DNA from: a virus | IMG/VR virus record: IMGVR_UViG_3300028800_000074 | Location: 1 to 64,000 of that record | DNA: 64,000 nt | Strand: one strand, 5' to 3' | Part shown: piece after piece, positions 38,447 to 59,131 of the stretch | How positions within the stretch are numbered: the stretch's first letter is position 1 | How the letters are laid out: each line of letters begins with the position of its first letter | Notes under the pieces: generated by a model | Told to the model about the DNA's origin: nothing | Seen by the model: the letters and a program-made list of their open reading frames with translations, nothing else | Database searches by the model: none | Program-made: the position numbers and the translations under genes

Positions 38447-39415
38447 ATGTCGGGCTTCCAGACCCAAGTCAATATCCAGCCCGCACTGGGTGTCGCGGGC
38501 GACTTTTGCAGCGCCAACACCCACAACACCTTCCAGTCCGGCGCAGGCGGCCTCGTCGCGGGCCCGGCTGGCGTGACCGTCGCCGCGTTCGCGTGGGTGA
38601 CCTATCAGACGACGGATGACGCCTACGCTCCGGGCACGGTCAACAGCTTCGGCTTTGGACCACCGAGCGGCTTCATCCATCGCGAGATGCAGTCGCTGAA
38701 CACCGTCTATCCGCCTTACGTCACCCCGGCTGGCGACAACACGATCCCGTCTGGCTTCCAGATCGGCTCGCTGTTCCGCTCCGGCGACTTCTTCATGACG
38801 AACAACGGGACCACGCAGGCGCAGCCGGGCCAGACGGCCTATGCGTTCCTCGCGACCGGCCTCGTCCGCTTCGGCTCGGCGAACACCACGACGTCGTCGA
38901 CGACCTCGACCGTCTCGGCGCAGACCTTCAGCGTCACCGCGACGCTGAACAACAACATCATGACCGTCTCGAACGTCAGCTCGGGCTCGATCTACGCGGG
39001 CGCGACCATCTCGGGTTCGGGCGTGATCGGGTGCCAGATCGTCGGTCAGGTGACCCCGCTACTCGCGGGCGAGACCCTCGCTGGCGTCGGCCGCTACTAC
39101 GTCAGCGCGGCCGAGCAGAACGTCGCCGTCGGCGTCACCGTCTCGGGCACCTACGGGTTGCTCACGCTCGGCGGCGCTCCAGCCACGCCGATCCCGATTG
39201 GCGCGTTCGTGAGCGGCGGCACCGTCGGCAACCCCTGCTATGTCCGGCAGCTCATCTCGGGCACGGGCGGCGCGGGCTCGACCTACTCGGTCGACAACAA
39301 CACCGTCTCTTCGTCGGCCACGCTCACCTTCACGCTCGACGTGGCGACGAGCTGGGTTGCGGACTCGGCGGGAGCGCCCGGCGAAGTCGTCAAGACCCGC
39401 TGCCTGATCCCGTAA
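38447..39415 (+). CDS. Structural cement/decoration-type capsid protein with inserted beta modules
   Basis: 322 residues. The N-terminus MSGFQTQVNIQPALGVAGDF followed by GGLVAGPAGVTVAAFAWV is the pattern of phage structural cement (gp24-like) proteins that stabilise capsids. From ~145 on, two copies of a beta-rich module appear (NNNIMTVSNVSSGSIYAGAT, ISGSGV; then GAFVSGGTVGNPCYVRQLIS), which also occurs in three other virion proteins here. It lies directly before the major capsid gene with AGGAGAG upstream of the start. Confidence 0.75.
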   Translation: MSGFQTQVNIQPALGVAGDFCSANTHNTFQSGAGGLVAGPAGVTVAAFAWVTYQTTDDAYAPGTVNSFGFGPPSGFIHREMQSLNTVYPPYVTPAGDNTIPSGFQIGSLFRSGDFFMTNNGTTQAQPGQTAYAFLATGLVRFGSANTTTSSTTSTVSAQTFSVTATLNNNIMTVSNVSSGSIYAGATISGSGVIGCQIVGQVTPLLAGETLAGVGRYYVSAAEQNVAVGVTVSGTYGLLTLGGAPATPIPIGAFVSGGTVGNPCYVRQLISGTGGAGSTYSVDNNTVSSSATLTFTLDVATSWVADSAGAPGEVVKTRCLIP

Positions 39416-39471
39416 GGCGGCTGACACAACCATAAAGCCCAAGCGGCTAACCTCTGTAGGAGAACCCTCAC

Positions 39472-40575
39472 ATGACCGTTCACATGAACCCGCAAGAGGC
39501 ACGCGCCGCTTGGGCTCTGCATGCGCCCGAGTTCGCTCGCCTCGGTTTTATCGCGCCGGAAATCCAGTCCTACTACCCCTCTGGGATGAAGGAAGACTGG
39601 ACGCTGGCGTTCGACGCGCAGCCTTCGCTCCAGTCCGACCCGAACTCGGCGCTGCCGGTGATGCTCACGACGATGATCGACCCAGAAGTCGTTCGCTTCG
39701 TCTTCGCGCCGACCGAGTTCGCCGACATCTGCGGCGAAGTCCGGAAGGGTACGTGGCTCGACGAGACGATCCTCTTCCCGGTCGTTGAACACACCGGCGA
39801 GGTCGCGCCCTACGGCGACGACTTCAACAGCGGCGCGTCCGGGGTCAACATGAACTGGCCCCCGAGGCAGAGCTACCTGTTCCAGATCATCAAGCAGTAC
39901 GGACAGCGTGCGCTTGAGCGGGCGGGGCTCGGCAAGATCGACTACGTGAGCGAGATCGACAAGGCTGCGGCCGACGTCGTGAACCGCTTCCACAACCTCG
40001 CCTACGCGTTCGGCATCCTAGGCCTCATCAACTACGGCATGTTGAACGACCCGGCGCTCCCGGCGTCGCTCACCCCGGGCGTCAAGGCGAACGGAAACGG
40101 CAACGTCTGGATTTTCAACAATCTGCCGAACGCCAGCGCCAACGAGGTCTACAACGACATCCTCGCCCTCTACCAGTCGCTCATCTCGCGCACCTACGGC
40201 CTCGTCAACAAGAAGTCGAAGCTGACGCTCGTGATGTCGCCGGGTTCCGAGATGGCGATGGACTTCGCCAACGGCTTCAACGTCCACACGAGCGACATCC
40301 TCGCGAAGGCGTTCCCGAACCTCACGATCAAGACCGCGCCGCAGTACGGCGTGCTCTCTGCGGCCAACCCGCAGGGGATCACCGGGGGCAACTTCGTGCA
40401 GCTCTTCGCCGAGGAGTTCGAGGGGACCAAGACCGTGATGGCCGCCTTCAACGAGAAGCAGCGCGCCTTCCCCATCATCAAGGAGATGTCGTCCTTCAAG
40501 CAGAAGGTCGCCTCCGGCGTGTGGGGCACCGTGATCCGACGGCCGCTCGCCGTCGCATCCATGATCGGGGTGTAA
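39472..40575 (+). CDS. Major capsid protein (DUF2184 family)
   Basis: 367 residues. The sequence fits the DUF2184 family of HK97-fold capsid proteins: EVVRFVFAPTEFADICGEVR around 65-85, then the central KQYGQRALERAGLGKIDYVS, and later EFEGTKTVMAAFNEKQRAFP near the C-terminus. It begins with AGGAG upstream of the ATG and follows the decoration protein as in other myoviruses. It would form the icosahedral shell. No N-terminal propeptide is apparent, so cleavage by the upstream protease is not shown here. Confidence 0.9.
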   Translation: MTVHMNPQEARAAWALHAPEFARLGFIAPEIQSYYPSGMKEDWTLAFDAQPSLQSDPNSALPVMLTTMIDPEVVRFVFAPTEFADICGEVRKGTWLDETILFPVVEHTGEVAPYGDDFNSGASGVNMNWPPRQSYLFQIIKQYGQRALERAGLGKIDYVSEIDKAAADVVNRFHNLAYAFGILGLINYGMLNDPALPASLTPGVKANGNGNVWIFNNLPNASANEVYNDILALYQSLISRTYGLVNKKSKLTLVMSPGSEMAMDFANGFNVHTSDILAKAFPNLTIKTAPQYGVLSAANPQGITGGNFVQLFAEEFEGTKTVMAAFNEKQRAFPIIKEMSSFKQKVASGVWGTVIRRPLAVASMIGV

Positions 40576-40644
40576 CCCCGGCCATATCGCACCGGGTCGG
40601 CGAGAGAGAGCGACCCAAACTTCCAAAACTGAAAGCAGGACATC

Positions 40645-41214
40645 ATGCCTCAAGCCGCAAGGCGGGAGCAGTCGATTGCGCACGCAGGCGCGACCGGCAC
40701 CGCCACCGTAACCGTCGCCTCGAAGCACCCGCAAGACATCGAGCTGCGGGTGATGGAGAAGTACACGCAGCGCGTCACCTATCAGTCGATGACTGTCGAC
40801 GAAGAGCACTGGCGCTCGAAGGGCCGACACTACGTCGTCAAGGGCAACTCGAAGCCGACGAACGGCAACTATCGAGCCCCGATTGCAGGCGGCTACGCGC
40901 TTACTCGCGGCATCCCGGCCGAGTTCTGGGATGAGTGGTGCAAGCAGAACGAGGGCAGTCCGCTGCTCAAGCCGGACGGCTTCGACGGCCAGCCTATCCT
41001 CCACGCTCTTGAGCGACCGCGCGAGGTCGCCGCATGGGCCAAGGATCACGCGTTCGTCCGCTCGAACATGGAGCCTATGTCGCCGGAGGACGATCCGCGC
41101 AACCCGAAGAACCCCTACGGCATCAAGGTCAAGCCGGACGAAGACGGCGGCAACGAGTTCTTCTTCGACGAAGAAGGCGAAGAAATCGCCGACAAGGCCG
41201 CGCGTCAGGCCTGA
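40645..41214 (+). CDS. Head-region protein, unknown
   Basis: 189 residues, beginning MPQAARREQSIAHAGATGTA. Beta-rich then acidic C-terminus (FFFDEEGEEIADKAARQA). The ATG of the next gene overlaps its stop. Position between capsid and DUF4054 suggests a head or connector role. Confidence 0.65.
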   Translation: MPQAARREQSIAHAGATGTATVTVASKHPQDIELRVMEKYTQRVTYQSMTVDEEHWRSKGRHYVVKGNSKPTNGNYRAPIAGGYALTRGIPAEFWDEWCKQNEGSPLLKPDGFDGQPILHALERPREVAAWAKDHAFVRSNMEPMSPEDDPRNPKNPYGIKVKPDEDGGNEFFFDEEGEEIADKAARQA

Positions 41215-41696
41215 TGGGCGTCGTCGTCCCGTCGTTCGACTATGCGGGGTGGGCTCTGGCCTACCCCGAACTCGCGCGTGCCGACGGCGTCTACCCAGAC
41301 GGCACGCCGTGGTCGATGAGCGACACTGTCGCGACCATGCTGTGGAAGGACGCCGGTCTGCCGGGCGGTTACTTCCGAAACGACGGCGGCGGCCGATGCA
41401 ACGACGTCGCCACGGCGGCGTCGATCCTCTTCAAGGTCACGGCGCATCTCGCGGCTCTGTGGATCAGACGGCAGCGAGACGTCGAGACCGGCTTCGTGGT
41501 CGGCAGGATCGCCTCAGGAGGCCAAGGAGGCGTGTCCGGCTCGATCCAGAACGATTATCCGCCCGGGACGCCGCAGTGGTGGCAGCAGACCTCCTACGGC
41601 TCTGACGCGTGGTCGCAGATGGCTCCATTCCGGGGCTTCGCCTACGTGCCCGGCCACAGTCGAAATATGAACCCTTGGTGGCCTTGGGCCTACTGA
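41214..41696 (+). CDS. DUF4054-type head-tail connector
   Basis: 160 residues from ATG 41214: the start FDYAGWALAYPELARADGVY is the DUF4054 pattern of adaptor proteins that sit below the portal. A helical centre (NDVATAASILFKVTAHLAAL) follows and a Trp/Tyr-rich end. It would join head and tail. It overlaps the previous stop by 1-4 nt. Confidence 0.75.
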   Translation: MGVVVPSFDYAGWALAYPELARADGVYPDGTPWSMSDTVATMLWKDAGLPGGYFRNDGGGRCNDVATAASILFKVTAHLAALWIRRQRDVETGFVVGRIASGGQGGVSGSIQNDYPPGTPQWWQQTSYGSDAWSQMAPFRGFAYVPGHSRNMNPWWPWAY

Positions 41697-41714
41697 CCGA
41701 AAGGAACATCGATC

Positions 41715-42347: not shown

Positions 42348-42418
42348 GGGACGTCGCGGGCTGGGTCTTCTTCGCCTTCATCGTCATCGGCCTCGCCCTT
42401 ATGTGGGTCCATGGTTAA
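42335..42418 (+). CDS. 27-residue membrane peptide
   Basis: GTG 42335, six bases after GAGG, overlaps the end of the upstream gene in another frame and encodes MEQLRDVAGWVFFAFIVIGL and a short end to residue 27. A single hydrophobic helix covers residues 9-23. Its stop overlaps the start of the next gene by 8 nt. Its place in a tight chain and clean membrane profile suggest a real small protein. Confidence 0.5.
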   Translation: MEQLRDVAGWVFFAFIVIGLALMWVHG

Positions 42419-42857: not shown

Positions 42858-43186
42858 ACGGTCGCATGCTCACTGACGGCTCACCGGTCCCAGAGGACGG
42901 ATCGCATATCGAGCTGAAGCCCAATGGCCAGCAGAAGGACTACATCGTCCTAACGCCGGAAGAGCGAGCGAAGGGGTTCGTTCGCCCTGTCCGCAGGAAG
43001 TACATCCACCTGAAGTGCGGCAGCGTGACGTCCATGGGGCCGTCCATCGCCGAGACCTATGCGCGTGATCCGCACTTCTACAGCGGAACCTTCTGCGTCG
43101 CGTGCGGCAAGCACTTCCCGGTCGGCCCTCTCGATATGGGCGGTGAGTTCGTCTGGGACGGCACCGAAGAGGCGGTCGGAACTTAA
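42854..43186 (+). CDS. Small zinc-binding phage protein
   Basis: 110 residues from ATG 42854. The C-terminal half holds HLKCGSVTSM and TFCVACGKHF, a Cys set (C56, then CVAC) likely to bind zinc. The start overlaps the upstream stop (ATGA). Unknown role at the head-tail interface. Confidence 0.65.
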   Translation: MNGRMLTDGSPVPEDGSHIELKPNGQQKDYIVLTPEERAKGFVRPVRRKYIHLKCGSVTSMGPSIAETYARDPHFYSGTFCVACGKHFPVGPLDMGGEFVWDGTEEAVGT

Positions 43187-43615
43187 GTGGTCGACTTCGC
43201 CCTCGTAACCGCAGGCGTCGCCAGCGCCATCAATCCGCGCGAGACGGTGATGATCACGCCGTCGACCGGGCCGAGCGCGCCGAACACGGCAGCTCAGCGC
43301 ACGCCGACGTTCGGCACCCCGCGCAATGCTCAGGCTCAGTTTCAGCGCCTGTCGTACAACGATCTCCAGCAGATCGAGTCGTCCGGCATCAACATTCAAG
43401 GCGCTCGATTCAAGATCATCGTCCACGGGCCCATCGACGGCATCAACCGTTCGACCGGTCAGGGCGGCGATCTCGTCACGCGCATCCGCGTCGACCAGAC
43501 CGTGTGGAAGTGCGTGCTCGTCCTTGATCGCTTCTACGGCACGCATGGCGAGGTTCGCTGGACCTCGGCCGTGGTGACGCAGCAAGACGCCGCACCGGTC
43601 TTCCAGAACAACTGA
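43187..43615 (+). CDS. Neck/tail-proximal protein
   Basis: 142 residues from GTG 43187. N-terminal segment MVDFALVTAGVASAINPRET and a beta-rich core (ARFKIIVHGPIDGINRSTGQ, then VWKCVLVLDRFYGTHGEVRW). Position between zinc protein and terminator-like gene fits a tail-joining role. No family name was assigned. Confidence 0.65.
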   Translation: MVDFALVTAGVASAINPRETVMITPSTGPSAPNTAAQRTPTFGTPRNAQAQFQRLSYNDLQQIESSGINIQGARFKIIVHGPIDGINRSTGQGGDLVTRIRVDQTVWKCVLVLDRFYGTHGEVRWTSAVVTQQDAAPVFQNN

Positions 43616-44352
43616 TGCTCCTTCCGTCGCCAAATCAGGTCACGGCGCAATCGGACATGGTCTCGTTTCTCGGGACGATGTTCTCGGGCGTCGAAGTGAT
43701 CGAAGGCCTCGACAATCGAGTGCCGGAGCCCGCTGGGTCAGACTTCATCGTCGTGACCCCGACCACGCGTCAGGCGCTCGGCTCGAACCTCGAAGTCTGG
43801 TCGGACGTCGTCTTCACCGCGACGATCTCCGGCAACACGCTCACCGTTTCGGCGGTCTCGTTCGGGACTATCGATCTCTCGAACAGCAATCAGCCTTCAC
43901 TGTGGGGCGTTGGGGTCGCCGATGCAACGCCGATCCTTTCACAGGTCAGCGGAACGCCGGGCGGCGTTGGCGTCTACACGCTCGGAGGATCGGCGCAGAC
44001 GGTCTCGACGCCGACCACCATGGCGGCCGGAGAGATCATTGTGATGCGCCCGATGGCGATCACGATGCAGCTCGACTTCCATACCGCCAACGTGACCGAC
44101 GCCGCCGATATGTCGGCCGCCTTCTCGGTCCTGTTCGGCACGCTGCAATCGACCGACGCTTTCAGAGGCTACGGCCACGGCGTCGGACCTCTCTACGCCG
44201 ACGACCCTCATCTCGCTCCGTTCGTCAACGCCGAACAGGAGTGGGAGCAACGATGGGTCGTCAACGCGACCGTTCAGGCCTTCCAGCAGGTCGAGTGGCC
44301 GCAACAGTTCATGTCTCAAGTTCAGGTGACGTTCGTCCGTGCGGGCGTCTGA
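43615..44352 (+). CDS. Tail terminator (LIC_12616-like) with inserted beta module
   Basis: 245 residues. Residues ~1-60 and 145-245 fit a LIC_12616-type tail terminator (NQVTAQSDMVSFLGTMFSG; ADMSAAFSVLFGTLQSTDAF; YADDPHLAPFVNAEQEWEQR). Between them lies a foreign ~75-residue beta module (TATISGNTLTVSAVSFGTID, then VSGTPGGVGVYTLGG) of the kind in the decoration, sheath and J proteins. The terminator caps the tail tube. It precedes the sheath gene. Confidence 0.75.
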   Translation: MLLPSPNQVTAQSDMVSFLGTMFSGVEVIEGLDNRVPEPAGSDFIVVTPTTRQALGSNLEVWSDVVFTATISGNTLTVSAVSFGTIDLSNSNQPSLWGVGVADATPILSQVSGTPGGVGVYTLGGSAQTVSTPTTMAAGEIIVMRPMAITMQLDFHTANVTDAADMSAAFSVLFGTLQSTDAFRGYGHGVGPLYADDPHLAPFVNAEQEWEQRWVVNATVQAFQQVEWPQQFMSQVQVTFVRAGV

Positions 44353-44371: not shown

Positions 44372-46348
44372 GTGACCACGATCCCGGTTTCGTTTATCGC
44401 CAACGTCATCCCCTCCGTCATTCAAGCGGGCGGAGCGGCGTTGGTTCTCAACGGCCTGATGCTGACGACCTCTCAGCGTCTTCCGACTGGCACCGTGCAG
44501 GGCTACGGCTCGGCGGCCAACGTCGGCACCTATTTCGGGCTCAGCTCGAACGAGTATTTGAAGGCGCAGCAATACTTCAACTCGTACCTGCTCGCATCGC
44601 AGTACCCGGGGCAGATTCTCGTCGCGCAGTTCACGCCGACCGACGTCCCCGGATGGGTGCGAGGCGGATCGATTGCCGGTTTGACGGTGCCTCAGGTCGC
44701 GGCGCTCACCGGCAACATCTCCATCGCCATCGGCGGCGGCACCTACACGGCGACCGGCTTGTCGCTGTCGAGCGCGACCTCCTACAGCGCGGCGGCGACG
44801 CTGATCCAGACCGCGCTCAACACGACCTTGCCCACCGGCTTCACGAGCACCGCCACGTCGGGCTCAATCGTCGCGGTGTCGTCGACCTTCCAAGGTTCGA
44901 TTGCAGGCAACGTGCTCACCGTCACCAGCGCGCCGTCGAACCTGCTTGTTCGAGGCGCGATCATCACGGTCGGCGCGTCGGTCGGCACGCAGATCACGGA
45001 GCAGCTCACTTCGACCGGCGCGGCGAACGGCGGCGTCGGCACCTACGCGGTCTCGATCTATCAGTCGGTCCCGCTGGGCACGAACTTCACCGCGACCTAC
45101 GGCACGCTCACCCTGTCGGCCCCTCCGGCGTCGGGCACGGCGTCGATTGGGATGCAGATTTCCGGCACGGGCGTGACGGCCGGGACGCAGCTCATGCAGG
45201 CGGGGCCGGGAACGGCCGGACAATCGTTCTACGTCTCGCCGTCGCAGACCGTGACCAATCAGACGATCACGGGCGTGTGGCCGCCTCTCACGGTGACCTA
45301 CGACTCGATCTCTGGCGGCATCCTGATCACGGCGGGCAATGTTGGAGCGATCTCGACCGCCGCAGCGGCGACCGGCTCGCTTGCGACGTCTCTCAACCTC
45401 ACGACCGCGACCGGCGCAACCGTCAGTCAGGGCGCAGCCGGTGTGACGCCGGGCGCGTTCATGCCGAACATCGTCTCGGCGACCCAGAACTGGGCGAGCT
45501 TCTTCACGCTCTACGATCCGGACGACGCTGGCGCTAACACCGGACAGTGGGCCTCGAAGGTCGCATTTTCTTCGTGGGCGACGGCGCAGAACAACCGGTA
45601 CCTCTACCTCGGGTGGGATACCGACATTCAGCCGACGCTCCAGTTTAGCTGCACCACGTCGTTCGCTTACGCGGTCGGTCCGAACGGGACGAACTCTTCG
45701 GGCACGATGCCGATCTACGATCCCAACAATACGGGCAAGGCGGCGTTCGTCGCGGGCTGCATCGCGAGCATCAACTTCGGCGCGCTCAACGGCCGAACCA
45801 CGATGGCGTTCAGGCAGCAGAGTGGTCAGGTCGCCGACGTCACGACCGGCACCGCCTACACGAACCTGCTCAACAACGGCTACAACTTCTACGGCGCTTA
45901 TTCGACCGCCAATCAGGGGTACACGTTCCTCTACAACGGGTCGGTCACCGGGCCGTATCTGTGGGCTGATTCCTATGTGAACCAGATCTACATGAACGCG
46001 GCATTTCAGGTCGACATGATCAGCCTCATGACGACCGTTCCGTCGATCCCGTACAACACCACGGGTGCGACGATGGTCGAGACCTCGCTGCTCCCGACCA
46101 TCAATCAGATGGTCAACTTCGGAGCCGTCGTTCCCGGCATTTCGCTGAGCGGCAACGAGATCGCGGCGGTCAACGCCATCGCGGGCTTCGACGTCTCCGG
46201 CATCCTCTTCAACGCCGGATGGTACTTCCAGATGCAGCCCGCGATCCCGTCGACGAGACGCGCTCGCACGACGCCGCCGATCTACTTCTTTTATTGCGAT
46301 GGCGGTTCCATTCAGCAGATGACGCTTAACAGCGTCGAGCTTCAGTAA
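44372..46348 (+). CDS. Tail sheath protein (DUF3383) with inserted beta modules
   Basis: 658 residues from GTG 44372 with AGGAGAG upstream. N-terminus FIANVIPSVIQAGGAALVLN and C-terminal FNAGWYFQMQPAIPSTRRAR fit the DUF3383 sheath-type family, evidence for a contractile tail. About 165-310 is a repeated beta-rich insertion (GSIAGNVLTVTSAPSNLLVR; SIGMQISGTGVTAGTQLMQA) like that in other virion proteins. The sheath contracts to drive the tube through the host envelope. It is larger than usual for the family because of the insertion. Confidence 0.88.
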   Translation: MTTIPVSFIANVIPSVIQAGGAALVLNGLMLTTSQRLPTGTVQGYGSAANVGTYFGLSSNEYLKAQQYFNSYLLASQYPGQILVAQFTPTDVPGWVRGGSIAGLTVPQVAALTGNISIAIGGGTYTATGLSLSSATSYSAAATLIQTALNTTLPTGFTSTATSGSIVAVSSTFQGSIAGNVLTVTSAPSNLLVRGAIITVGASVGTQITEQLTSTGAANGGVGTYAVSIYQSVPLGTNFTATYGTLTLSAPPASGTASIGMQISGTGVTAGTQLMQAGPGTAGQSFYVSPSQTVTNQTITGVWPPLTVTYDSISGGILITAGNVGAISTAAAATGSLATSLNLTTATGATVSQGAAGVTPGAFMPNIVSATQNWASFFTLYDPDDAGANTGQWASKVAFSSWATAQNNRYLYLGWDTDIQPTLQFSCTTSFAYAVGPNGTNSSGTMPIYDPNNTGKAAFVAGCIASINFGALNGRTTMAFRQQSGQVADVTTGTAYTNLLNNGYNFYGAYSTANQGYTFLYNGSVTGPYLWADSYVNQIYMNAAFQVDMISLMTTVPSIPYNTTGATMVETSLLPTINQMVNFGAVVPGISLSGNEIAAVNAIAGFDVSGILFNAGWYFQMQPAIPSTRRARTTPPIYFFYCDGGSIQQMTLNSVELQ

Positions 46349-46386: not shown

Positions 46387-46857
46387 ATGGCAACGCAGAT
46401 CACGTCGCTCGATTGCATCTTCATGCTCGGGGTGACGAACGTCTACAACAACCCCATCAAGCTCTCGAACTTCTCGGCCGACGACATCTTCACCACCGAG
46501 AACTTGGCGGTCGGCGAGTTCGTGATGGGCATCGACGGCTTCCTGACGGGCGGCGCGCTCAACGTGCCGACCCCGATGACGATCTCGCTGCAAGCCGACT
46601 CGCCGTCCATCGTCCTCTTCGACGACTGGTACCTCTACATGAAGCAGAACGACACGCTGGCGTGGGCGTTCGGAACCGTGGCCTTCCCGTCGCTCGGTAA
46701 GAAGTTCACGCTCGATAGGGGCGGCCTTCGAAACTACAAGATGATCGCCGACGCACGGAAGACGCTCCAGCCGGTGCAGTACACCATCATCTGGCAGAAC
46801 CCGCTTCCAGCGCCGTCGGCGCAGGCGACGCTCGCCGTCCCGCCTGCCGGGCACTAA
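46387..46857 (+). CDS. Tail tube protein (DUF3277-like)
   Basis: 156 residues. A beta-barrel pattern (TTENLAVGEFVMGIDGFLTG; TPMTISLQADSPSIVLFDDW; FAFGTVAFPS-like stretches) and position straight after the sheath fit the tube protein of DUF3277 type (KPP10-like). A strong ribosome site (AAGGAG) precedes it. It would form the inner tail tube. Confidence 0.82.
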   Translation: MATQITSLDCIFMLGVTNVYNNPIKLSNFSADDIFTTENLAVGEFVMGIDGFLTGGALNVPTPMTISLQADSPSIVLFDDWYLYMKQNDTLAWAFGTVAFPSLGKKFTLDRGGLRNYKMIADARKTLQPVQYTIIWQNPLPAPSAQATLAVPPAGH

Positions 46858-46862
46858 GCCGT

Positions 46863-48110
46863 ATGATCAGGCGTATTGTCGCGGCGCTCGTCGCCGCATC
46901 CCTCGCGGTCGCCTGCGCCACCGCGAGGTCGTCGTCTCCTTCCGTCGGAAAGGGATACCAGCGGGTCACTCAGGATTGGACCGGCTCGTCGACATCCGGC
47001 CACTTCGTCGACCCGAGCCTGTCGTCGCAGTCTGCGAACCTGTGGAACCACTATCAGGGCATCGCGGTCCTCTACGCCGAGTGGAAGACGAATCAGCCTC
47101 AGGCGAGCGATGCGCTGAGCCGCATCAAGGCGGAGGCCGCGTGGGTCAAAGCTACGTGGCCAAACGCCTCGACGTGGTCAAGTTGCGGCACCGGGGCAAT
47201 GCTCCCGGCCCTCGACGACGTCGCATGGACCGCGCATGCCTTCCTCGTCTTCAACGAGGTCACTGGCGACAAGTTCTGGCTCACGGCGGCGAAGAACGCC
47301 ATCGATTGCTCGGGCAACCGCTGGTACGACCCGAACTGGGGCGGCCTCTGGTACAACGACGCCAAGGTCTCGAAGCGCAGCTACACAGCCGAACTCGTCT
47401 TCGACATGCTGCGCTACGACGAGCTGGCGCACGTCAGCGACTATCTCGGCGACGCCCAGTACACCTATCAGTGGGCGACCACGAACGTCGCCCCTTGCGG
47501 CTCGGGCGTCATCGCCGGGGTCAGCTCGAACTGCCTCTACCGCAGCGATGGAGGCTTCTGGGACGGCGTCGGCGCGAACGGCAATGCGGTCTTGCCAACG
47601 ACGCAGACTTCGCCCACGCCTCCACCCGCCGACGCGACGGGGACGCCCTACCAGATTCAGCTAGCGGCGACGCTTCCCTCGTGGGGCTGGAGCGTCACCT
47701 TCCTCGAAGGCAACATGATGTGGAGCGTCGTCGCGGCGAAGCTCAACGCCATCTCGCCGAACCCTGCCTTCGCCGCACAGATCAACGCCACGGCCGCGTT
47801 CATGGCGGCGCATGAGAGCTATCAGGGCGGCTTCCTCGATGATCAGGACGCCAACACCGACGCCGCAGCGGCCTACTTCTACCGGACGTTCGCCGAGCCG
47901 CTCCTGACCAGCGCCAACAAGACGAAGATCGACGCGATGTACGCGGCGACCGCAAGCGGCGTCGTGGCAGGGAACTGGAGCTGGGATTGGCAGCTTCCCG
48001 CGTCGTGCGGCGTCTGGTGCAATCAGGGGTTCGGTTCATCGGCCGACCCGAAGGCTCCGCTCGCGCCAATCGCGAACTCGACCATGTGGGCCGTGATGGG
48101 AGGCCTCTGA
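46863..48110 (+). CDS. GH76-like exported lipoprotein
   Basis: 415 residues with a lipoprotein signal ending at LAVAC (Cys19). The mature part resembles glycoside hydrolase family 76 (alpha-1,6-mannanase-type, (alpha/alpha)6 barrel): an acidic pair in LDDVAWTAHAFLVFNEVTGD at about 117-118, AAKNAIDCSGNRWYDPNWGG, and a later WGWSVTFLEGNMMWSVVAAK. It might degrade or modify surface glycans. It stands alone between the tube and chaperone genes, where no envelope enzyme is expected, so it looks like a 'moron'. Confidence 0.62.
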   Translation: MIRRIVAALVAASLAVACATARSSSPSVGKGYQRVTQDWTGSSTSGHFVDPSLSSQSANLWNHYQGIAVLYAEWKTNQPQASDALSRIKAEAAWVKATWPNASTWSSCGTGAMLPALDDVAWTAHAFLVFNEVTGDKFWLTAAKNAIDCSGNRWYDPNWGGLWYNDAKVSKRSYTAELVFDMLRYDELAHVSDYLGDAQYTYQWATTNVAPCGSGVIAGVSSNCLYRSDGGFWDGVGANGNAVLPTTQTSPTPPPADATGTPYQIQLAATLPSWGWSVTFLEGNMMWSVVAAKLNAISPNPAFAAQINATAAFMAAHESYQGGFLDDQDANTDAAAAYFYRTFAEPLLTSANKTKIDAMYAATASGVVAGNWSWDWQLPASCGVWCNQGFGSSADPKAPLAPIANSTMWAVMGGL

Positions 48111-48678: not shown

Positions 48679-48815
48679 TCGCTCTCCAGACGGTCCTCAG
48701 CGTCAAGGACTTATATGTCCTGCTCGAAGTCATGACCGTCGACACCTACAACAAGCGCCAGTACCAAGAGGCTTGGAAGGCAAAGTTAGAGCGCGAACGT
48801 GCCAACGGTTCTTGA
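48148..48815 (+). CDS. Tail assembly chaperone, -1 frameshift fusion (~222 aa)
   Basis: Reading GTA-AAT-TTT at 48532-48540 and slipping back one base continues as TTC-GAC-GCT in the other frame, giving HVNF-FDALEPIGRGFRAF and a helical 91-residue end (LIALQTVLSVKDLYVLLEVM). The join comes after residue 131. Frameshift products of this type are made by many tailed phages to set the ratio of two chaperones. The extension's end overlaps the tape measure start by 17 nt. Confidence 0.78.
48534..48540 (+). promoter_or_regulatory. Predicted -1 ribosomal slippery heptamer (AAATTTT)
   Basis: A-AAT-TTT fits X-XXY-YYZ in the zero frame of the chaperone gene, with the codons spaced as required for a -1 shift into the frame that ends at 48815. 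Confidence 0.78.
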
Positions 48816-50820
48816 TCAGCTTTCATTCGAGCTAGGCCTCGACCCCTCTCAGTTTGAAGAGGGATTGAAGAAGGCTGTCCAAGCCTCGCTGAAGCTGCAC
48901 GACGAGACGATCAAACACTCGAAGGAAATCCAGCACGAGGTCGGCGAGAACCTGACCGAGGCTTTCCGCAAGGCGCGTGATCACATCATCGAGTTCACCG
49001 CCGCGTTGCTCGGCGCTCGAACCGTGGTCGACTTCACGGCCGACACCGTCTCGGCCGGGTCGGCGATGTCCACGCTCTCGACGCAGCTCGGGATGGCTCC
49101 CGAGAAGATCAGCGCCTTCCAGATGGCGATGGAGCGCGTCACCGGTTCGACGCAGGGCGCTACCGCCGCGCTGGTCGCGGTCAACGGCGCGGTCGAGCGC
49201 AGCAAGGTGTTCGGCGAAACGCCGGGCCCGTACCTCGTCTTCGACAAGGATGCGGACGCGCTCGAAAACATCCTGAAGACCGTCGAGAACCTCAACCATG
49301 GGACCGGCGAGGGGACTGGCGACATCCAAGACCGCGTCGCCAAGCTTCAATCGGTCGTTCAGGACGCAGGCGTCGCGACGCAACTGATCACCCTCGGCGC
49401 AGCTCGCGTCCGCGAGATGATGAAGGACGCGGGGCCGAACGTCTGGACCCAGAAGCAGGTCGACGACGCGAACAAGCTCCTCGATAGCTGGGTGCAGCTC
49501 AAGGGCGCAGCGACCAGCTTTGCCCGCTCAATCCTTGGAGACGTCGAGCCCGCGCTCAGCGCGCTCCTACTCGATCTCAAGAGCCTCTTCGACGCAAACC
49601 GGGAGGGGATCAAGGACTGGGTCGGCGACAAGATCAAAGCCATCGACGAGTGGATCAAGACGCCGGGCTGGCAAAAGGTCGCCGACGACTTCGAAGAGCA
49701 CCTTCGGCAGATCAACGCCATCGTGAAGGCCATAGGAGGCTGGCAGACAGCCATTGAGGCTCTGGCCGCCCTCTTCATCGCCGACAAGATCGCCAACGTC
49801 GTGCTGGGCCTCATCGCCATTGCCCGGGCGCTCGCCTTGATCTCCGGCGTCAGCGCACTATCTGCGGTCTTTGGAGGAGGGGTCGCCGCAACCGCAGCCA
49901 AGGGCGCAGGCGGCGCAGGATTGATGTCGATGATCTGGCAGGGAATCAAGAACGGCTCAATCGCTGTTGGCGGCCTCGCGGCTCTGGCGGCTGGCTCGTT
50001 GGTCTACGGCGACATCAGCGGGCAGCAGGGCTTCATGAAGAAGTTCTACGCCAACGAGCCTATGACGCCAAAGGAGGAGGCCGACCTCCACACGTGGATC
50101 GACGCTCAGATCGGCGCTAAGATCGGCGGCAACTCTGGCCCTCACCCGCGCAACGCTGAAGTCGCAATCACCGCCGACGGTCGCCCAGTGACGACGTCGA
50201 GCCCGCTCCCCGTCATCTCCGTCAGCCCGACCGACTCGCTCGGGATCATCCCGTTCCAGTCGGGAAGCTCATCGAGCGGCTCCGACTCATCGTCAGACTC
50301 TTCGCCGATCACCGTCGTCAAAGACGCGGCCCACTCGGTCGTCAACGCGGCGAAGAACTTCGGCAATTGGCTGATCGGCGGCGACAAGGCCAAGGCCTCG
50401 ACGGGCCCGGCGTCATCAAGACCGGCGTTCCCCGTTTCACCGTCAGGGCCGCACCCGAGAAATCAACCGGCTTCAACAACCGGTGCTGGCTTCACCTATG
50501 AGACGCGTCCCGAGGCGACGCCTCTTCCGCCCGGGGCCGCGCCGAGGTCCGACAGCAACACCGTCGAGTATCACGGCAAGCACTATCATCAGAACGCCGA
50601 CGGCACGCTCGGCGCGGAAGTCCATGCTTGGATGCAGAGCAGCACCCGCTACGCGAGCGAGATGCATGCCCACGCCGGAGACCGTTCGAAGAGCGTCTCG
50701 ATTGCGGCGCTGCATATCCACGGCTCGTCGAACAGCGAAAAGACGTCAGATCGAGACGTGGTGCTTCGAGCGATCAAGCGCGACCTCCTGACGCTCAACA
50801 TGGACGTCGGTCTTGCCTAA
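48799..50820 (+). CDS. Tape measure protein 1
   Basis: 673 residues from GTG 48799. N-terminus LDQLSFELGLDPSQFEEGLK, then long helices, a hydrophobic stretch at about 320-400 (LAALFIADKIANVVLGLIAI; GGAGLMSMIWQGIKN), and Ser/Gly-rich linkers. The C-terminus ends MHAHAGDRSKSVSIAALHIH. Tape measure proteins set tail length and may form a pore. It is followed without a gap by a second protein of the same plan. Confidence 0.8.
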   Translation: MPTVLDQLSFELGLDPSQFEEGLKKAVQASLKLHDETIKHSKEIQHEVGENLTEAFRKARDHIIEFTAALLGARTVVDFTADTVSAGSAMSTLSTQLGMAPEKISAFQMAMERVTGSTQGATAALVAVNGAVERSKVFGETPGPYLVFDKDADALENILKTVENLNHGTGEGTGDIQDRVAKLQSVVQDAGVATQLITLGAARVREMMKDAGPNVWTQKQVDDANKLLDSWVQLKGAATSFARSILGDVEPALSALLLDLKSLFDANREGIKDWVGDKIKAIDEWIKTPGWQKVADDFEEHLRQINAIVKAIGGWQTAIEALAALFIADKIANVVLGLIAIARALALISGVSALSAVFGGGVAATAAKGAGGAGLMSMIWQGIKNGSIAVGGLAALAAGSLVYGDISGQQGFMKKFYANEPMTPKEEADLHTWIDAQIGAKIGGNSGPHPRNAEVAITADGRPVTTSSPLPVISVSPTDSLGIIPFQSGSSSSGSDSSSDSSPITVVKDAAHSVVNAAKNFGNWLIGGDKAKASTGPASSRPAFPVSPSGPHPRNQPASTTGAGFTYETRPEATPLPPGAAPRSDSNTVEYHGKHYHQNADGTLGAEVHAWMQSSTRYASEMHAHAGDRSKSVSIAALHIHGSSNSEKTSDRDVVLRAIKRDLLTLNMDVGLA

Positions 50821-53080
50821 CGGCATGATCGAAGCTCTCTACCTTGAGCTTCGGATCGACGACAGCAAGTTCAAGGACGACGAGGATAAGCACGACGCGA
50901 AGCTGAAGGCGACGCGCCAGCGCATCGTCCGCGAAGCCGAGATTGTCGAGGCCGAGATCGCCGCCCGGTTCGCCGAGACTTTCAAAAAGCTCCGAGACGA
51001 AGTGCTCGGGGTGTTCGGCATCCTGATCGGCGCGACGACGATCACGGGGTTTCTCACGTCGACGACCGGGCTTGCGACGTCGCTCGATTTGATCTCGAAG
51101 GCGACCGGGGAGTCAGTCCATTCCCTTCACGCCTTCGATCTTGCCGTGCAGGCTGCGGGCGGCGCTCCCGGCGAGGCGGCCGACTTCATGGCCCGGCTCT
51201 CGACCGAGCTGGCAAACCAGCGCGTCCTCAATACGCCGATGGCGGACTGGTGGTACAAGTTCGGTCTCGGAGCCGAGCAGGCCAAGAACCCGATTGAGGC
51301 CTATCTCAAGCTCGTCGAGAAGGTCGAGCAGGCGAACCTTTCGCGTCCTGAGAAGTCGGCGGCGCTCCAGTCCCTCGGCATGAGCCCGGCGCTCATTCAG
51401 GAAACCCTGAAGGGCTCCGAGCAGGTCAAGGCCGACATCGCCAAGTTCGGACCCTACGCGCTGACGGACAGAGACGCCGAAGTCGTCGTCAAGATGCGCG
51501 AGTCATGGGGCGAGCTTCGGGCCTCCGTCGAGGGCTTCGCCCGGGCGGTGCTCGGCCTCACCAACGACGACATCGTCGGCATCCTCGACAAGCTGAAGAC
51601 GTGGGTCGACGAACTGCGCCAGACCGCCCTCCCATGGCTCCATGAGCGAGCCAAGGAGCTGCGGGACATCATCGACCATATCGACTGGGGGTCGCTGAAG
51701 GACGGGATCAGGACCGCAACCCAGAGCATCCGGAACGTCATCGACGCGCTCGGAGGGTGGAAGTTCGCCACCGAGGTCATCATCGGGCTGCTCGTGGCCA
51801 ATTCGTTCGCCCCCATCCTTCGGGGCATGCTGTCCTTGACCGGCGCGCTCGGGATTGGCGGGCCTCTTCTGGCGGCGGCGCTCGCCCTCGGGGCGGCGTT
51901 CGAGCTGTATCAGCACCTGAAGGGTGAACAGACCCAGCCGAAGCACCCGGCGTCCGGTGTTGGCGCGGGTGACATCCCAAGTCGAGCCGCAGCGCCGGAA
52001 GAAGCCACTACGGCGGTCAAGGGCGGCGGTTTTGCCATCCCCGGGTCCAATGACACGTCCGGAAGCCAAAAGCCGCCAGCGGCCTCCTATGGGGCTCCTG
52101 AGGCCTATGGGTCAAAAGGCGTCGAGATGGAGGTCGGCGGCTCCCCGATCTCGGCCGGGCACCCGATGCCGGTCTACGTGGTCAATCAGGTGACTGCCGA
52201 AGACGACGACGCGTGGTCACTCCTGACGAAGTTCTTCGGCAAGGCCTACGGCGGGGTGACCAATTGGTGGCACGGCGGCAGCAGGTCGAGCGTCGGCGGC
52301 GGAGGCGGGGCTGGCCCACGCGACTTCTCCGGCTACGCAGGGGCTGGCACGGCCGGGTCTGGCCACGGTTTCAATTACGAGGGCGGCCGGAAGCTCTTCG
52401 GCATGTTCAAGCTCCTTGGCATGAGCGACGAGGCGGCGGCCGGGGCGGTCGGCGGCGTCATGGGGGAGTCCTTCACGTCGCTCGACCCGAACGCCTTCCA
52501 CGCCAACGACGTTCGCCCGGGCATCGGCTCCGGTGGTCTGGCGCAGTGGAACCGGGAGCGTATCCAAGGCCTCTGGCGCTTCGCCAACGAGGCCGACCCC
52601 AGCTTGGGGCTCGATACGAGCGTGATCGACAACGATGGCATCCGACGCCAGCTCATGCGCGTGAACGCGGACGTCCAGATGCGCTACATCGTCTGGGAGC
52701 TTCAGAATACGGCCGCAGGGCGTAGCACCTTGGCGAGGCTGCGCTCGACGAAGAGCGTCGGCGAGGCAGCGGCGATCTGGGCGCAGATTTACGAGGGCGC
52801 GGTCGGCGGGTCCGAGGGAAGGCGGGCCGACTACGGGGCGACCTTTCTCAAGCACATGAACGATTCAATCCGAGCGCCATCGGTGTTCCCGCCCCCGGAT
52901 GCGTCAAAGACGAAGTCTCTATCCGGCGCGATGTCGGCGCTCAGCTACCACCGCTTCGCCGCCGCGCAGGCGATCCATCATCACACCGAGATCGCAAACG
53001 TGAGCGTCCACACTCAGGCGACGACGCCGGAAGCCATCGCGCAGGACATCAGGGTCGCGGTCGAGCGCGAGGTCGCCTGA
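50813..53080 (+). CDS. Tape measure protein 2 with phage tail lysozyme domain
   Basis: 755 residues from TTG 50813 (ATG 50825 is also in frame). The N-terminus YLELRIDDSKFKDDEDKHDA, central hydrophobic helices (EVIIGLLVANSFAPILRGML) and the C-terminal HHHTEIANVSVHTQATTPEA parallel the previous protein, suggesting gene duplication. Residues ~525-685 are a tail lysozyme: MFKLLGMSDEAAAGAVGGVM, then GES (Glu near 551), and GSGGLAQWNRERIQGLWRF. It would cut peptidoglycan as the tail enters. Confidence 0.85.
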   Translation: MPNGMIEALYLELRIDDSKFKDDEDKHDAKLKATRQRIVREAEIVEAEIAARFAETFKKLRDEVLGVFGILIGATTITGFLTSTTGLATSLDLISKATGESVHSLHAFDLAVQAAGGAPGEAADFMARLSTELANQRVLNTPMADWWYKFGLGAEQAKNPIEAYLKLVEKVEQANLSRPEKSAALQSLGMSPALIQETLKGSEQVKADIAKFGPYALTDRDAEVVVKMRESWGELRASVEGFARAVLGLTNDDIVGILDKLKTWVDELRQTALPWLHERAKELRDIIDHIDWGSLKDGIRTATQSIRNVIDALGGWKFATEVIIGLLVANSFAPILRGMLSLTGALGIGGPLLAAALALGAAFELYQHLKGEQTQPKHPASGVGAGDIPSRAAAPEEATTAVKGGGFAIPGSNDTSGSQKPPAASYGAPEAYGSKGVEMEVGGSPISAGHPMPVYVVNQVTAEDDDAWSLLTKFFGKAYGGVTNWWHGGSRSSVGGGGGAGPRDFSGYAGAGTAGSGHGFNYEGGRKLFGMFKLLGMSDEAAAGAVGGVMGESFTSLDPNAFHANDVRPGIGSGGLAQWNRERIQGLWRFANEADPSLGLDTSVIDNDGIRRQLMRVNADVQMRYIVWELQNTAAGRSTLARLRSTKSVGEAAAIWAQIYEGAVGGSEGRRADYGATFLKHMNDSIRAPSVFPPPDASKTKSLSGAMSALSYHRFAAAQAIHHHTEIANVSVHTQATTPEAIAQDIRVAVEREVA

Positions 53081-55288: not shown

Positions 55289-56502
55289 CGGACGCTGTCG
55301 GCTTTGCTGGCCTACCGGAGCTTGGCGGCACCGAGCTTTCGGACGCCGTCTTCATCGCCAAGCAGATCATCATGCACGTCAGGACGCTGACGCATGTGAA
55401 GGTCACCGCCGTCTACCCCGGCAACTATAACCCTACGCCGACCTTCGTCGATGTGACGCCGGTCATCGATCAGGTCAACAGCGAAGGCACGCGGCAGCAG
55501 CACGGCACGATCTACCGCATCGCCGTTCCTCGTATCCACAATGGGTCGAGCGCGATCCTGATGGACCCGGTCGTCGGCGACGTTGGTCCGATGTGGGTCA
55601 GCGACCGCGACCACTCTCAAATGATTGCCAACAATGGCGGCAGATCAGCGCCGGGCTCTGGCCGGATCATGAGCTTGGCGGACGGCCTCTTCATGGGGAG
55701 CCTGTTCGCTCAGAACCCGACAAACTACACTGACCTTCGGAACGGCAACCACAATTCAACGTCGACGAAGGTCGTCTCGCACAACGTCAGCGGGCCGGAC
55801 GCCAAGATCGCAGACACGGCGACGAGCGGCTCGACGACGAACACGAGAACTAACGATCCGAACGCCAAGTCAATCGTCGACCAGTCTTCGACCGGATCAA
55901 ACGACGCCACGCACACCGTCGACTCGACGACGCCAAAGGTTCAGTCGATGGCGACCGACGGTGTCCACACCAGCTCGATTGACGTGACGCCAACGGCCGT
56001 AAGCATCGGTGGAGCGCTGGCGACGGCGGCGGGTGGGATCGGCTCATCGTCGGGCGGCGGAGGGACCGCCAATCTCGCGCCCTCCGACGGCACGACAACG
56101 CCGACAGCAGCGCAAATCGGCGGTCGGGTGTCGTCAGGCCTCCAGACGGTCACGGCAACAGGGGCGTGGCAGACTGTCGCGTCGATCCCGCTCACGGCTG
56201 GCTATTGGCTGATCTTCGCGAACATCAGCGTCTTTGCTGGCGGCGGCGGCGCGACCATGATCGAATTTGACGCCGTCATATCGACGACGTCGGGGAGCCC
56301 GTTGTCGATCTCAGGCGAAGTCGGCATCGCCTTTCAGGACATCAGCATCGTTATGGCCGCTGGCGACGGCTGGCAAAGCCCGCTCGGCGTCACGACGCTC
56401 ACAATCGCGACGTCGGAAACGCTCTACCTCAACGTCTTTGCCGGGGCGAGCGCCGGGACGCTGTCGGCCGAAGGCATCATCACCGCGATCAGGATGGGAT
56501 AG
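55285..56502 (+). CDS. Baseplate spike (Gp138 N-terminal type)
   Basis: 405 residues. The N-terminal ~115 residues (HVKVTAVYPGNYNPTPTFVD; RIAVPRIHNGSSAILMDPVV, then GPMWVSDRD) fit the Gp138/gp5-type OB domain of spikes. A Thr/Ser/Gly-rich middle and a beta-rich C-terminus (GAWQTVASIPLTAGYWLIFA) follow. It forms the membrane-piercing point. GTGA overlap with the hub. Confidence 0.82.
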   Translation: MTDAVGFAGLPELGGTELSDAVFIAKQIIMHVRTLTHVKVTAVYPGNYNPTPTFVDVTPVIDQVNSEGTRQQHGTIYRIAVPRIHNGSSAILMDPVVGDVGPMWVSDRDHSQMIANNGGRSAPGSGRIMSLADGLFMGSLFAQNPTNYTDLRNGNHNSTSTKVVSHNVSGPDAKIADTATSGSTTNTRTNDPNAKSIVDQSSTGSNDATHTVDSTTPKVQSMATDGVHTSSIDVTPTAVSIGGALATAAGGIGSSSGGGGTANLAPSDGTTTPTAAQIGGRVSSGLQTVTATGAWQTVASIPLTAGYWLIFANISVFAGGGGATMIEFDAVISTTSGSPLSISGEVGIAFQDISIVMAAGDGWQSPLGVTTLTIATSETLYLNVFAGASAGTLSAEGIITAIRMG

Positions 56503-56506
56503 TCGC

Positions 56507-56911
56507 ATGACCGCTTACGCCTCCCTCCTACTCGATCTCGTCAACTGGGACTTGTGCGTCGATGCATCGGGGAACATCGCCACCTGCCAAGAGCCCTATC
56601 GCCTTGCGCAGGACGCGGCGTGCCAGACCCGTCTTTGGTCTGGAGAGCTTCGCTACGACACGACGCAGGGTGTGAACTATTCCGGCCTGATCCTCGGCCA
56701 CTGGTCACCGCCAGCGTTGATCAAGGCGAACATCGCGTTCGAGGCCATGCGCGCGACCGGAGTGGGTAACGCTCAGGTCTACTTCACGGGGTGGAGCAAC
56801 GCGACGCGTAAACTGACAGGAGTGATCACGGTCGTCCCCGAGGAGACGACGCCCACGGGCGTGATCCCTCCAATCCCATTCTCCGTGTCGCCTGCGGTGC
56901 AGGCTTACTAA
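56507..56911 (+). CDS. Baseplate wedge (gp25/W-like)
   Basis: 134 residues from ATG 56507. LVNWDLCVDASGNIATCQEP, then LAQDAACQTRLWSGELRYDT and ALIKANIAFEAMRATGVGNA match the gp25/W baseplate wedge pattern in phages. It starts 4 nt after the spike stop. Confidence 0.8.
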   Translation: MTAYASLLLDLVNWDLCVDASGNIATCQEPYRLAQDAACQTRLWSGELRYDTTQGVNYSGLILGHWSPPALIKANIAFEAMRATGVGNAQVYFTGWSNATRKLTGVITVVPEETTPTGVIPPIPFSVSPAVQAY

Positions 56912-56933
56912 CCGCCCTCTCGCGCGGGGAAGT

Positions 56934-56971
56934 GTCGGCGGGTCCGTCGCGAGACTCTCTCTCCCGCCGAC
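56934..56971 (+). other. Intergenic hairpin before lysozyme gene
   Basis: GTCGGCGGG (56934-56942) pairs perfectly with CCCGCCGAC (56963-56971) across a 20-nt loop. CCTTTCCGAAAAAAATC follows, which has no T-run, so it is not a classic terminator. The gap 56912-57002 holds nothing else recognised. It may tune expression of the lysozyme or act as an RNA-processing site. Confidence 0.5.
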
Positions 56972-57002
56972 AGCCCTTTCCGAAAAAAATCAGGAGACGA
57001 TT

Positions 57003-57536
57003 ATGGCTGGACCTACTCTGGTGACGAACCGCTCTGCCCCGCTTCTGGCTTCAGTCAGGCCGCTCGTTGCGTGGCCTGATCCGAAGGCGATGCCGCAGTT
57101 CTACGACGTCGCCGACGAGATCGCGATGGCGTTCAAGTCCTACGGCGTGACCAAGAACTTCATGCTCGGCGGCCTCGCTCGCGCAGAGCTGGAGTCTTCG
57201 CTGAGGCTCGTCGTCGTTGGCGACAAGGACGCGGCGCAGGGCCCGGCGCACGGCCTCTGGCAGTGGGACTTGGCTCGCTGTGCCGAGATTCACCAGCATC
57301 TCGACATCGACATCATCAACGGTGCCTCGGTCGAGGATCAGGTCAAGTCGGTCATGTGGGAGCTGGAGACGTTCCCCTACTACGGGCTGAAGCAGATTCA
57401 GGCCGCGCCGGACCCCAACACGAGCGGCATGATGTGGTGCGAGTTCTACGACCGACCCGAGCGGGCGGACGAGCCGACCCGCACCGGCATGGCGGCAGTC
57501 AGATGGGCCACGCAGTGGACGTTCCCCGGCTGGTGA
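57003..57536 (+). CDS. Phage-tail-lysozyme-like muramidase (candidate endolysin)
   Basis: 177 residues with AGGAG upstream. FMLGGLARAELESSLRLVVV (Glu62/Glu64 as catalytic candidates) and HGLWQWDLARCAEI parallel the lysozyme domain of tape measure 2. No signal peptide. It may be a baseplate lysozyme or the endolysin. It lies between wedge and J genes, in its own transcriptional setting with a hairpin ahead. Confidence 0.72.
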   Translation: MAGPTLVTNRSAPLLASVRPLVAWPDPKAMPQFYDVADEIAMAFKSYGVTKNFMLGGLARAELESSLRLVVVGDKDAAQGPAHGLWQWDLARCAEIHQHLDIDIINGASVEDQVKSVMWELETFPYYGLKQIQAAPDPNTSGMMWCEFYDRPERADEPTRTGMAAVRWATQWTFPGW

Positions 57537-57589
57537 GCCGGGTCTCAAAATCTACTCAATAATCACTCAGATTTGAGGATTGGCGCTTT

Positions 57590-59131
57590 ATGGCGACCAA
57601 CGTCCCGCCGCTTGTCTTCACGCCGACCGGTATCATCGCGCCGCTTGAGAGCGCGATTGAAGCTGGAGTGCAGGCCGACTTCCAAGCGGCCTTCACCGTC
57701 CTCGGCGGTCCTCCGCTCAACTTCACCACGAACACGGGCGCGAACACCAACGCGACACCGCAGTCGATGCTTGCCGACGCCGAGACGGCGATCATCGGAC
57801 AGACCAACGACCTCTTCCTGCTCTACGCCAACCTGTTCGACCCGGCGCTTTCGTTCGGCAGGTTTCATGACGCCTTGGCGCGCATCTATTACATCACGAG
57901 GTTCTCCGGCACGCCGACGCTCGTGCTGGTGCAGTGCATCGGCGCGATCAACACCCAGATTCCTCTCGGCGCGCTGATTCAGGACATCAACGGATTTCAG
58001 TACGTCGCAACTCAGGCTGCGACGATCCCGTACTCCGGGTCGGTGATCATCCCGTTCGCATGCACGACGGTCGGTCCGATCCCATGCGCCGCCAATGCCC
58101 TATCGAGCGCAGATGGCGCAGAGATCGTGCAGACGATCTCCGGGTGGGACGCGATCTCGAACTCGGCGGCCGGGATCACGGGTCTCAATGCGGAGAGCGA
58201 TCAAGCCCTCGAAGTCAGGCGGTACAATTCGACCGCGATCAACGCCCACGGGACCGAGCCTTCGCTGCGCTCGAACCTTCTCGCCGTCCCGGGTGTCATC
58301 GACGCCTATGTCGTTTCGAACAGGACGTCAGGCGTGACGACGTTCATGGGCGTCACCCTCGGGCCCTATTCGATCTGGATTTCGGTCGAAGGCGGAAGCG
58401 CTGCGGCAATCGCCGCCGCGATCCTCGCGCAAGCCCCGCCGTGCCCGATGAACGGGAACACGAGCTACACCATTCAGGACACGCAGCAGGGCCAGCAGGC
58501 TCCGTATCCATCCTACGTCATGACGTGGGAGACGCCGACGCCGCTGCCGATCATCGTCGCCGTGACGATTGCAAACCTCCCGAACATTCCAAGCAATGCG
58601 CAGTCGCTGATCTCGGCGGCCATCGTCGCCGCGTGGTCAGGCCTCGATCTTCAGGGCTACAATTCCGTCAGCCAGCCGGTCTACGGGCCGAGGGTGTCAT
58701 GGCCAGCGATCTTCGCTCAACGACTTGCGAACGCGATCAACGCGTACACGTGCTGGGTCGGCATCCAAGTCGTCGCCGTTCAGCTCGGCTCCCCGAACGA
58801 CGCCAACACCGTGACGCTCCAAGGCACGGTCGCGACCAGCGGTGGGAACACGACGCTGACCGTGACCTCGGTCTCGTCGGCCGGCATCGCTCCGGGCCAG
58901 TGGCTCGCGGATACGCTCGGAAATGTTCCGGGCGGAGTGCAGATTCTGAGTCAGCTCAGCGGCGTGGCGGGAGGTACCGGAACCTACGCGCTCACTGGAG
59001 CTGGCAAAATCTTCTCCATCGGCGTCAGCCAGACGATCTACTCGATCACGCCTCTCTCTGACGAAGAGTCGATCAACCTCAACCAGTTTCCGACGATCAA
59101 CGCCGCCAACGTCGGTCTCGCCACGCAATGA
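57590..59131 (+). CDS. Baseplate J-like protein with inserted beta module
   Basis: 513 residues. N-terminal region (GIIAPLESAIEAGVQADFQA; LLYANLFDPALSFGRFHDAL) and the middle SDQALEVRRYNSTAINAHGT fit Baseplate_J. Residues ~410-480 are the recurring module (NTTLTVTSVSSAGIAPGQWL; GVAGGTGTYALTG). The protein forms the outer wedge. The preceding 53-nt gap has a weak inverted repeat (CTCAAAATCT with AGATTTGAG). Confidence 0.84.
   Translation: MATNVPPLVFTPTGIIAPLESAIEAGVQADFQAAFTVLGGPPLNFTTNTGANTNATPQSMLADAETAIIGQTNDLFLLYANLFDPALSFGRFHDALARIYYITRFSGTPTLVLVQCIGAINTQIPLGALIQDINGFQYVATQAATIPYSGSVIIPFACTTVGPIPCAANALSSADGAEIVQTISGWDAISNSAAGITGLNAESDQALEVRRYNSTAINAHGTEPSLRSNLLAVPGVIDAYVVSNRTSGVTTFMGVTLGPYSIWISVEGGSAAAIAAAILAQAPPCPMNGNTSYTIQDTQQGQQAPYPSYVMTWETPTPLPIIVAVTIANLPNIPSNAQSLISAAIVAAWSGLDLQGYNSVSQPVYGPRVSWPAIFAQRLANAINAYTCWVGIQVVAVQLGSPNDANTVTLQGTVATSGGNTTLTVTSVSSAGIAPGQWLADTLGNVPGGVQILSQLSGVAGGTGTYALTGAGKIFSIGVSQTIYSITPLSDEESINLNQFPTINAANVGLATQ

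Follow-up and report, generated by a model that had tools for sequence, protein, structure and literature searches.

Structural genes and module copies in the window

The organization of virion genes was analyzed in a window of 64,000 nucleotides, which is part of a 79,131-bp IMG/VR virus record. The window encodes the virion proteins of a phage with a contractile tail, and core-family matches place it among the DUF3383/XM1-like myoviruses. PF23982 (the Vibrio phage XM1 minor capsid family), PF23961 (the phage neck terminator family), PF11863 (the DUF3383 sheath family) and PF04865 (the baseplate J family) are all present, in the syntenic order of DUF3383-type XM1/E217-like myoviruses. Gene order is that of the structural region of Pantoea phage PA-1, which has the same core families. 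Profile searches identified six in-frame copies of one beta module of about 65 residues (range ~60-75) in four virion proteins: tandem pairs in the decoration protein and the sheath, single copies in the tail terminator and the J protein. They are distributed as follows:

38447..39415, +, minor capsid/decoration protein, 322 aa, XM1 gp53-like core (PF23982, phrog_2122)
38927..39148, +, decoration module copy 1, aa 161-234 (HMM E 3.5e-18)
39137..39331, +, decoration module copy 2, aa ~231-295 (HMM; empty site in contigs L157 and L163)
39472..40575, +, major capsid protein, no module (control)
43187..43615, +, head-completion/neck protein, no module here
43615..44352, +, tail terminator, 245 aa, PF23961 core
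43807..44028, +, terminator module, aa 65-138 (HMM E 3.2e-19; empty site in L185, L193 and L199)
44372..46348, +, tail sheath, 658 aa (PF11863 DUF3383, phrog_205; fold similar to the Pa193 sheath, Z 34)
44882..45094, +, sheath module copy 1, aa 171-241 (HMM; AlphaFold2)
45083..45274, +, sheath module copy 2, aa ~238-301 (HMM; DSSP on models)
46387..46857, +, tail tube, no module (control)
57590..59131, +, baseplate J/wedge protein, 513 aa (PF04865, phrog_6)
58811..59044, +, J module, aa 408-485, ahead of the C-terminal strand (HMM E 1.4e-14; empty site in L238-L242)

Each insert is flanked on both sides by its host family (PF23982, PF23961, PF11863 or PF04865), as the initial annotation had stated. 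In the decoration protein that annotation had correctly placed a module, as a single region; two tandem modules are in fact present there, and the last strand of the core, VVKTRCLIP, comes after the second. No fifth module-bearing protein was found in the whole record.

Two observations concern neighbouring genes. A 415-aa ORF (46863-48110, +) sits between the tube and tape-measure genes; it has what we take to be a lipoprotein-like signal sequence and may encode a secreted glycoside hydrolase. Two adjoining tape-measure-like ORFs (48799-50820 and 50813-53080, +) are 24% identical over their first ~350 residues.

Reality of the module

Local protein comparison related the decoration protein to the sheath (E 1.6e-7) and the J protein to the terminator (E 0.003). 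The six window copies, aligned alone, were too divergent to seed a search of the collection. A test profile was derived solely from copies that unrelated viral contigs (L008-L108) encode, and all 527 ORFs of the six-frame translation of the window were searched with it. The four module ORFs ranked at the top (E 3e-13, 2e-12, 4e-6 and 8e-4), and the next ORF had E = 1. As a control, each module segment was shuffled 1000 times with its composition preserved. The real best-domain scores exceeded the best shuffle in all four proteins: 31.3 bits versus 4.6 for the sheath, 40.9 versus 12.1 for the terminator, 21.8 versus 8.5 for the decoration protein and 12.4 versus 7.8 for J. The recurrence of one module in four virion proteins, proposed earlier from the letters of the DNA, is thus confirmed by an independent profile and by shuffles, and the similarity extends beyond low complexity.

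J is the weakest case in the window (E 8e-4 with the profile from unrelated contigs). Its membership was accepted because the corresponding position in relatives holds an unmistakable module that is matched far more strongly (1.8e-22 in L001, 4e-19 in L003). Pure low complexity is ruled out by the shuffles for the sheath, terminator and decoration protein, and by the relatives for J. A chance likeness among beta-rich, Gly/Thr/Val-rich stretches would fit the biased composition of the copies (HMMER bias 10-16 bits), yet it is hardly conceivable: a profile from unrelated hosts puts exactly these four ORFs first, shuffled segments score lower than the real ones, the predicted fold is compact and of high confidence, and the same sites are filled in relatives.

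Insertion sites and module-free relatives

The sequences of relatives provide an empty site for all four hosts. In the sheaths of L129 and L006 the helix around LIQxAL is followed directly by the VTYDS hairpin. The decoration proteins of L157 and L163 run from SFAAAGA directly into TVAGSTETKWFAM. The terminators of L185, L193 and L199 lack the segment past the residues equivalent to EVWSD of the window, and J proteins of L238-L242 read SIISLLLGTT followed by APTLPSVTIPINR or close variants. Pantoea phage PA-1 (in its structural region), Bcep781, E217/Pa193 and XM1 share the core families of the window without the module, and their sheaths measure ~490-505 aa compared to 658 aa here; none was found either in Acetobacter phage phiAO1. 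These clean empty sites indicate that the insertion is well defined and that the module-free state is viable. The terminator gene upstream of the L153 sheath (5935-7935) carries a second module at a different site, so that insertion must have occurred more than once. Copy number ranges from 0 to 3 in the decoration protein, 0 to 2 in the terminator, 0 to 3 in the sheath and 0 to 2 in J.

Distribution of the module over virion proteins

A census was taken among sheath-bearing contigs. The module is present in 26 of 30 decoration homologues and 62 of 81 terminators; the value for the sheath (83/85) is biased upward, the search having used mostly module-bearing sheaths. In a separate count, 41 of 80 J proteins carry it. 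It is rare in the neck protein (3/68, L122 with its 196-aa homologue being a module-bearing example). No module was found in relatives of the major capsid protein (0/41), the tube (0/81), the tape measure (0/76), the hub (0/65) or the protease (0/18), and interior or core genes total 0 of ~390. Separately, the fold of the module is matched in BFVD by A0A6J5SIT1, a protein of an uncultured phage annotated as an HK97-type major capsid protein; judging from this predicted structure, the major capsid protein may be a host in other lineages.

Presence at the different sites is correlated. In each of the 23 records in which J carries a module, modules are also present outside J. Among the 23 records whose J is module-free, 7 have modules elsewhere and 16 have none, and the DUF3383 sheath is present in all 23 (Fisher p 5e-7, a value that ignores kinship and includes some records that are fragments). 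The seven mixed records indicate that one site can change without the others.

The insertion domain (InD) of the XM1 sheath points away from the tube in a horizontal direction, and trimers of gp53 sit on the capsid surface (PMC10457771). From these positions the module sites are expected to face outward, by homology to the XM1 and E217 relatives. The restriction of modules to proteins expected to be exposed agrees with the surface decoration that the initial annotation had anticipated.

Predicted fold

The tandem pair of the window sheath was modelled with AlphaFold2, the input being this pair and 78 relatives, and the fold was called from the tandem pair and full sheath models. The pair is all-beta (pLDDT 90.8, pTM 0.83). 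In the full sheath model (pLDDT 89.2, pTM 0.86) the insert spans residues 164-302, between a core helix (138-149) and a core strand (307-311), and the core superposes on the Pa193, E217 and XM1 sheaths with Z of 34, 33 and 30. DSSP run on both models shows one strand continuous from copy 1 into copy 2.

The PDB contains no confident relative of the module pair (best Foldseek E 0.45), and sequence searches of the PDB with the module gave nothing meaningful. VIA neighbours are small barrels of the EF-Tu-domain-II/F1 type and fragments of virion proteins from phages, all with Z <= 6.6; the EF-Tu domain II-like barrels score Z 5.5-6.6 (rmsd of ~3 for ~72 residues), a range common for VIA. No Pfam or NCBIfam family describes the module, and none of 79 module members matched an Ig/Big-type profile in these two collections. 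No Ig structure is among the VIA matches listed, an absence that is itself compatible with an Ig fold. The module was not filed as an Ig-like domain because the Ig-family sequence test failed and the structural comparison, whose best matches are small barrels at Z <= 6.6, gave no support for an Ig fold.

The invariant positions are mostly Gly and the Tyr of GxGTY, whose role looks structural. A conserved cluster of aromatic residues, as is typical of lectin sites, is not apparent. Carbohydrate binding cannot be read from the structure, as there is no confident match to a known binding domain.

Relatives outside this phage group

Relatives of the module were found in at least 439 viral contig stretches and at least 42 bacterial genome stretches. 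In podovirus-like contigs the module is present in SU10-type adaptors and head-closure Hc3 proteins, and it is also found in head-tail joining proteins and tail-fibre-type proteins. In L012 (2731-5727) and L017 (1400-4593), neighbouring adaptor-type and Hc3-type genes both carry it, a parallel to the myovirus pattern. L113 encodes a different J protein, in which two modules occupy other positions. Outside any virion, a GH5 cellulase of Roseicella sp. (L110, 166-4362) has two modules in its C-terminal half.

The strongest structural matches are predicted viral proteins (BFVD). The best of them is a module pair in a collagen-repeat protein of Indivirus ILV1 (Mimiviridae; A0A1V0SDM6_2, TM 0.87, 40% identity), which suggests that phages and giant viruses of protists share the module. 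Predicted viral proteins annotated as ChiC_BD, ConA-like lectin or pectate lyase also match, as weak structural matches. The module corresponds to a stretch inside the profiles phrog_38233 (tail fibre) and phrog_21413 (unknown function), neither of which sets it apart as a domain. A tblastn search of annotated phages with the isolated module gave no matches, the low-complexity filter probably masking it, and these phages were searched with the host proteins instead.

History of the copies

For 175 of 224 modules the nearest relative is at the same site of another genome, indicating that most filling of the sites predates the divergence of these phages. Recent conversion within genomes was rejected as the main pattern: in a single case of the 224 was the nearest relative at another site of the same genome. 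These four sites also hold modules in contigs with sheath identities of just 47-51%. Even copies that are 76% identical in protein approach saturation, or background, at third codon positions. The spread is therefore old, and DNA alignment, by which the initial annotation had hoped to date the transfers, cannot do so; nothing recent is visible in the genome.

The decoration protein and the sheath are linked by the order of their copies. Identity is 0.478 between first copies and 0.448 between second copies, against 0.409 and 0.397 crosswise, which points to an ordered two-module cassette once common to both genes. Position-matched pairs from a single genome resemble each other more than pairs taken across genomes (p = 0.007 and 0.0001; n=14 and 15). 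This likeness is clear at the protein level and unclear at silent sites, as would be expected from a shared target or an old conversion: either the exchange was old or the copies have been kept alike by selection. Terminator-sheath pairs showed no greater likeness within a genome than between genomes. The earlier idea of a spread between virion genes is accordingly upheld for the decoration protein and the sheath, and finds no such tie for the terminator. Since many unrelated phage proteins contain the module, import from a common pool explains the terminator and J copies at least equally well, and these two sites were probably filled independently from this wider phage pool.

Mean identity of the modules (0.49-0.52) is close to that of the sheath core (0.52-0.53); modules conserved like the core are not decaying passengers. 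A repeat-like segment spreading by illegitimate recombination and tolerated only in exposed loops, so that exposure would mean tolerance and not use, would explain both the promiscuity across many host families and the gain and loss at each site. We regard it as very improbable, because protein identity is held at about 50% despite near-saturated silent sites, and because copies co-occur over the whole particle.

Possible function

The preceding sections establish the module, its insertion and empty sites, its restriction to proteins expected to be exposed, a confident predicted fold, core-like conservation and an old age. A single sticky or protective domain probably covers the exterior of the virus in many copies. 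The Ig-like domains on Hoc are thought to give weak reversible contact with surfaces or glycans. Display on the surface with weak, avidity-based adhesion of a similar kind is the best-supported reading of the module, and we give it about an even chance. A compact beta-rich module of ~65 residues has entered tolerant loops in the outward-facing proteins, as one copy or as a tandem cassette, and would be displayed on the exterior of head, neck, sheath and baseplate. XM1 is built with 18 sheath hexamers, and with decoration trimers over a shell of 415 major capsid copies (PMC10457771); by extrapolation from an XM1-like build, a particle might carry from hundreds to more than 1000 module copies. 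Their avidity would allow weak, reversible contact with the host surface or with extracellular glycans (biofilm, capsule, exopolysaccharide). In favour of this reading are the surface-only distribution, the clean empty sites, the variable copy number, the co-occurrence over the particle, the core-like conservation, and the recurrence of the module in tail fibres, the Roseicella cellulase and viral proteins with ChiC_BD, ConA-like lectin or pectate lyase annotations. Against it are the lack of a confident match to a binding domain, the missing lectin-type aromatic patch, the structural look of the invariant positions, and the module-bearing podovirus adaptor and head-closure proteins, low-copy neck parts for which adhesion is not required. 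The two-module cassette would have been exchanged long ago between the decoration and sheath genes, with the terminator and J probably supplied separately from the wider pool.

The main rival, in our view unlikely, is that modules act as cement, touching neighbouring subunits and stabilising the capsid, the neck-sheath joint and the sheath lattice. Such a role is known for decoration proteins, and stabilisation is an alternative proposed for extra sheath domains (PMC9230969). The terminator and the sheath, which are adjacent ring proteins, both carry the module, copies are constrained like the core, and decoration and sheath copies co-vary within a genome. Against cement, module-free relatives exist at each site, the module occurs where there is no lattice (tail fibres, a secreted cellulase), and sheath rings slide on contraction, a movement that rigid cement between rings would hinder.

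The module could also be a steric shield or spacer, its bulk protecting the particle or setting distances without recognising a specific ligand. The varying number and position of the inserts, a sequence rich in small residues (Gly, Thr, Ser, Ala, Val) and the lack of a specific known binding fold would suit this role. It is rather improbable, since the motif and individual positions in it are strongly conserved and the pair order is kept in both the decoration protein and the sheath.

Comparison with known surface domains

Promiscuous phage surface domains are known mainly as Ig-like domains. Like those, e.g. in T4 Hoc, the module is a beta domain that occurs promiscuously on exposed proteins of head and tail, in varying numbers, and is dispensable at single sites. 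Unlike them it measures about 65 aa, has no Pfam Ig/Big match and no Ig among the structural neighbours listed, and lies inside continuous ORFs in several proteins of the same particle. Ig-like domains on phage virion proteins were described by Fraser et al. 2006 (as cited in PMC10385173 and PMC9230969). For extra tail sheath domains, adhesion, appendage formation or stabilisation have been offered as roles (PMC9230969). Compared to these domains and to the XM1 InD (PMC10457771), the module is an additional insert within the DUF3383 sheath and, unlike them, is common to the decoration protein, the terminator and J. What differs here is the presence of one domain, without a Pfam or NCBIfam entry, in the head, neck, sheath and baseplate of one particle.

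Naming this family would improve the annotation of many hypothetical virion proteins, given its extent among viral contigs. A wider reading, which we hold only tentatively, is that a non-Ig adhesive module makes up one particle-wide surface system of a large group of tailed phages: it would be grafted on head, neck, sheath and baseplate, with gain and loss mostly affecting the whole set and with the head and sheath copies of each genome kept matched, and would serve fibre-like proteins of giant viruses and secreted enzymes of bacteria as well. The purpose of extra surface domains has been left open in the sheath literature (PMC9230969), and the variants with and without the module at every site, together with module-free sister phages, offer natural controls for the role of such domains.
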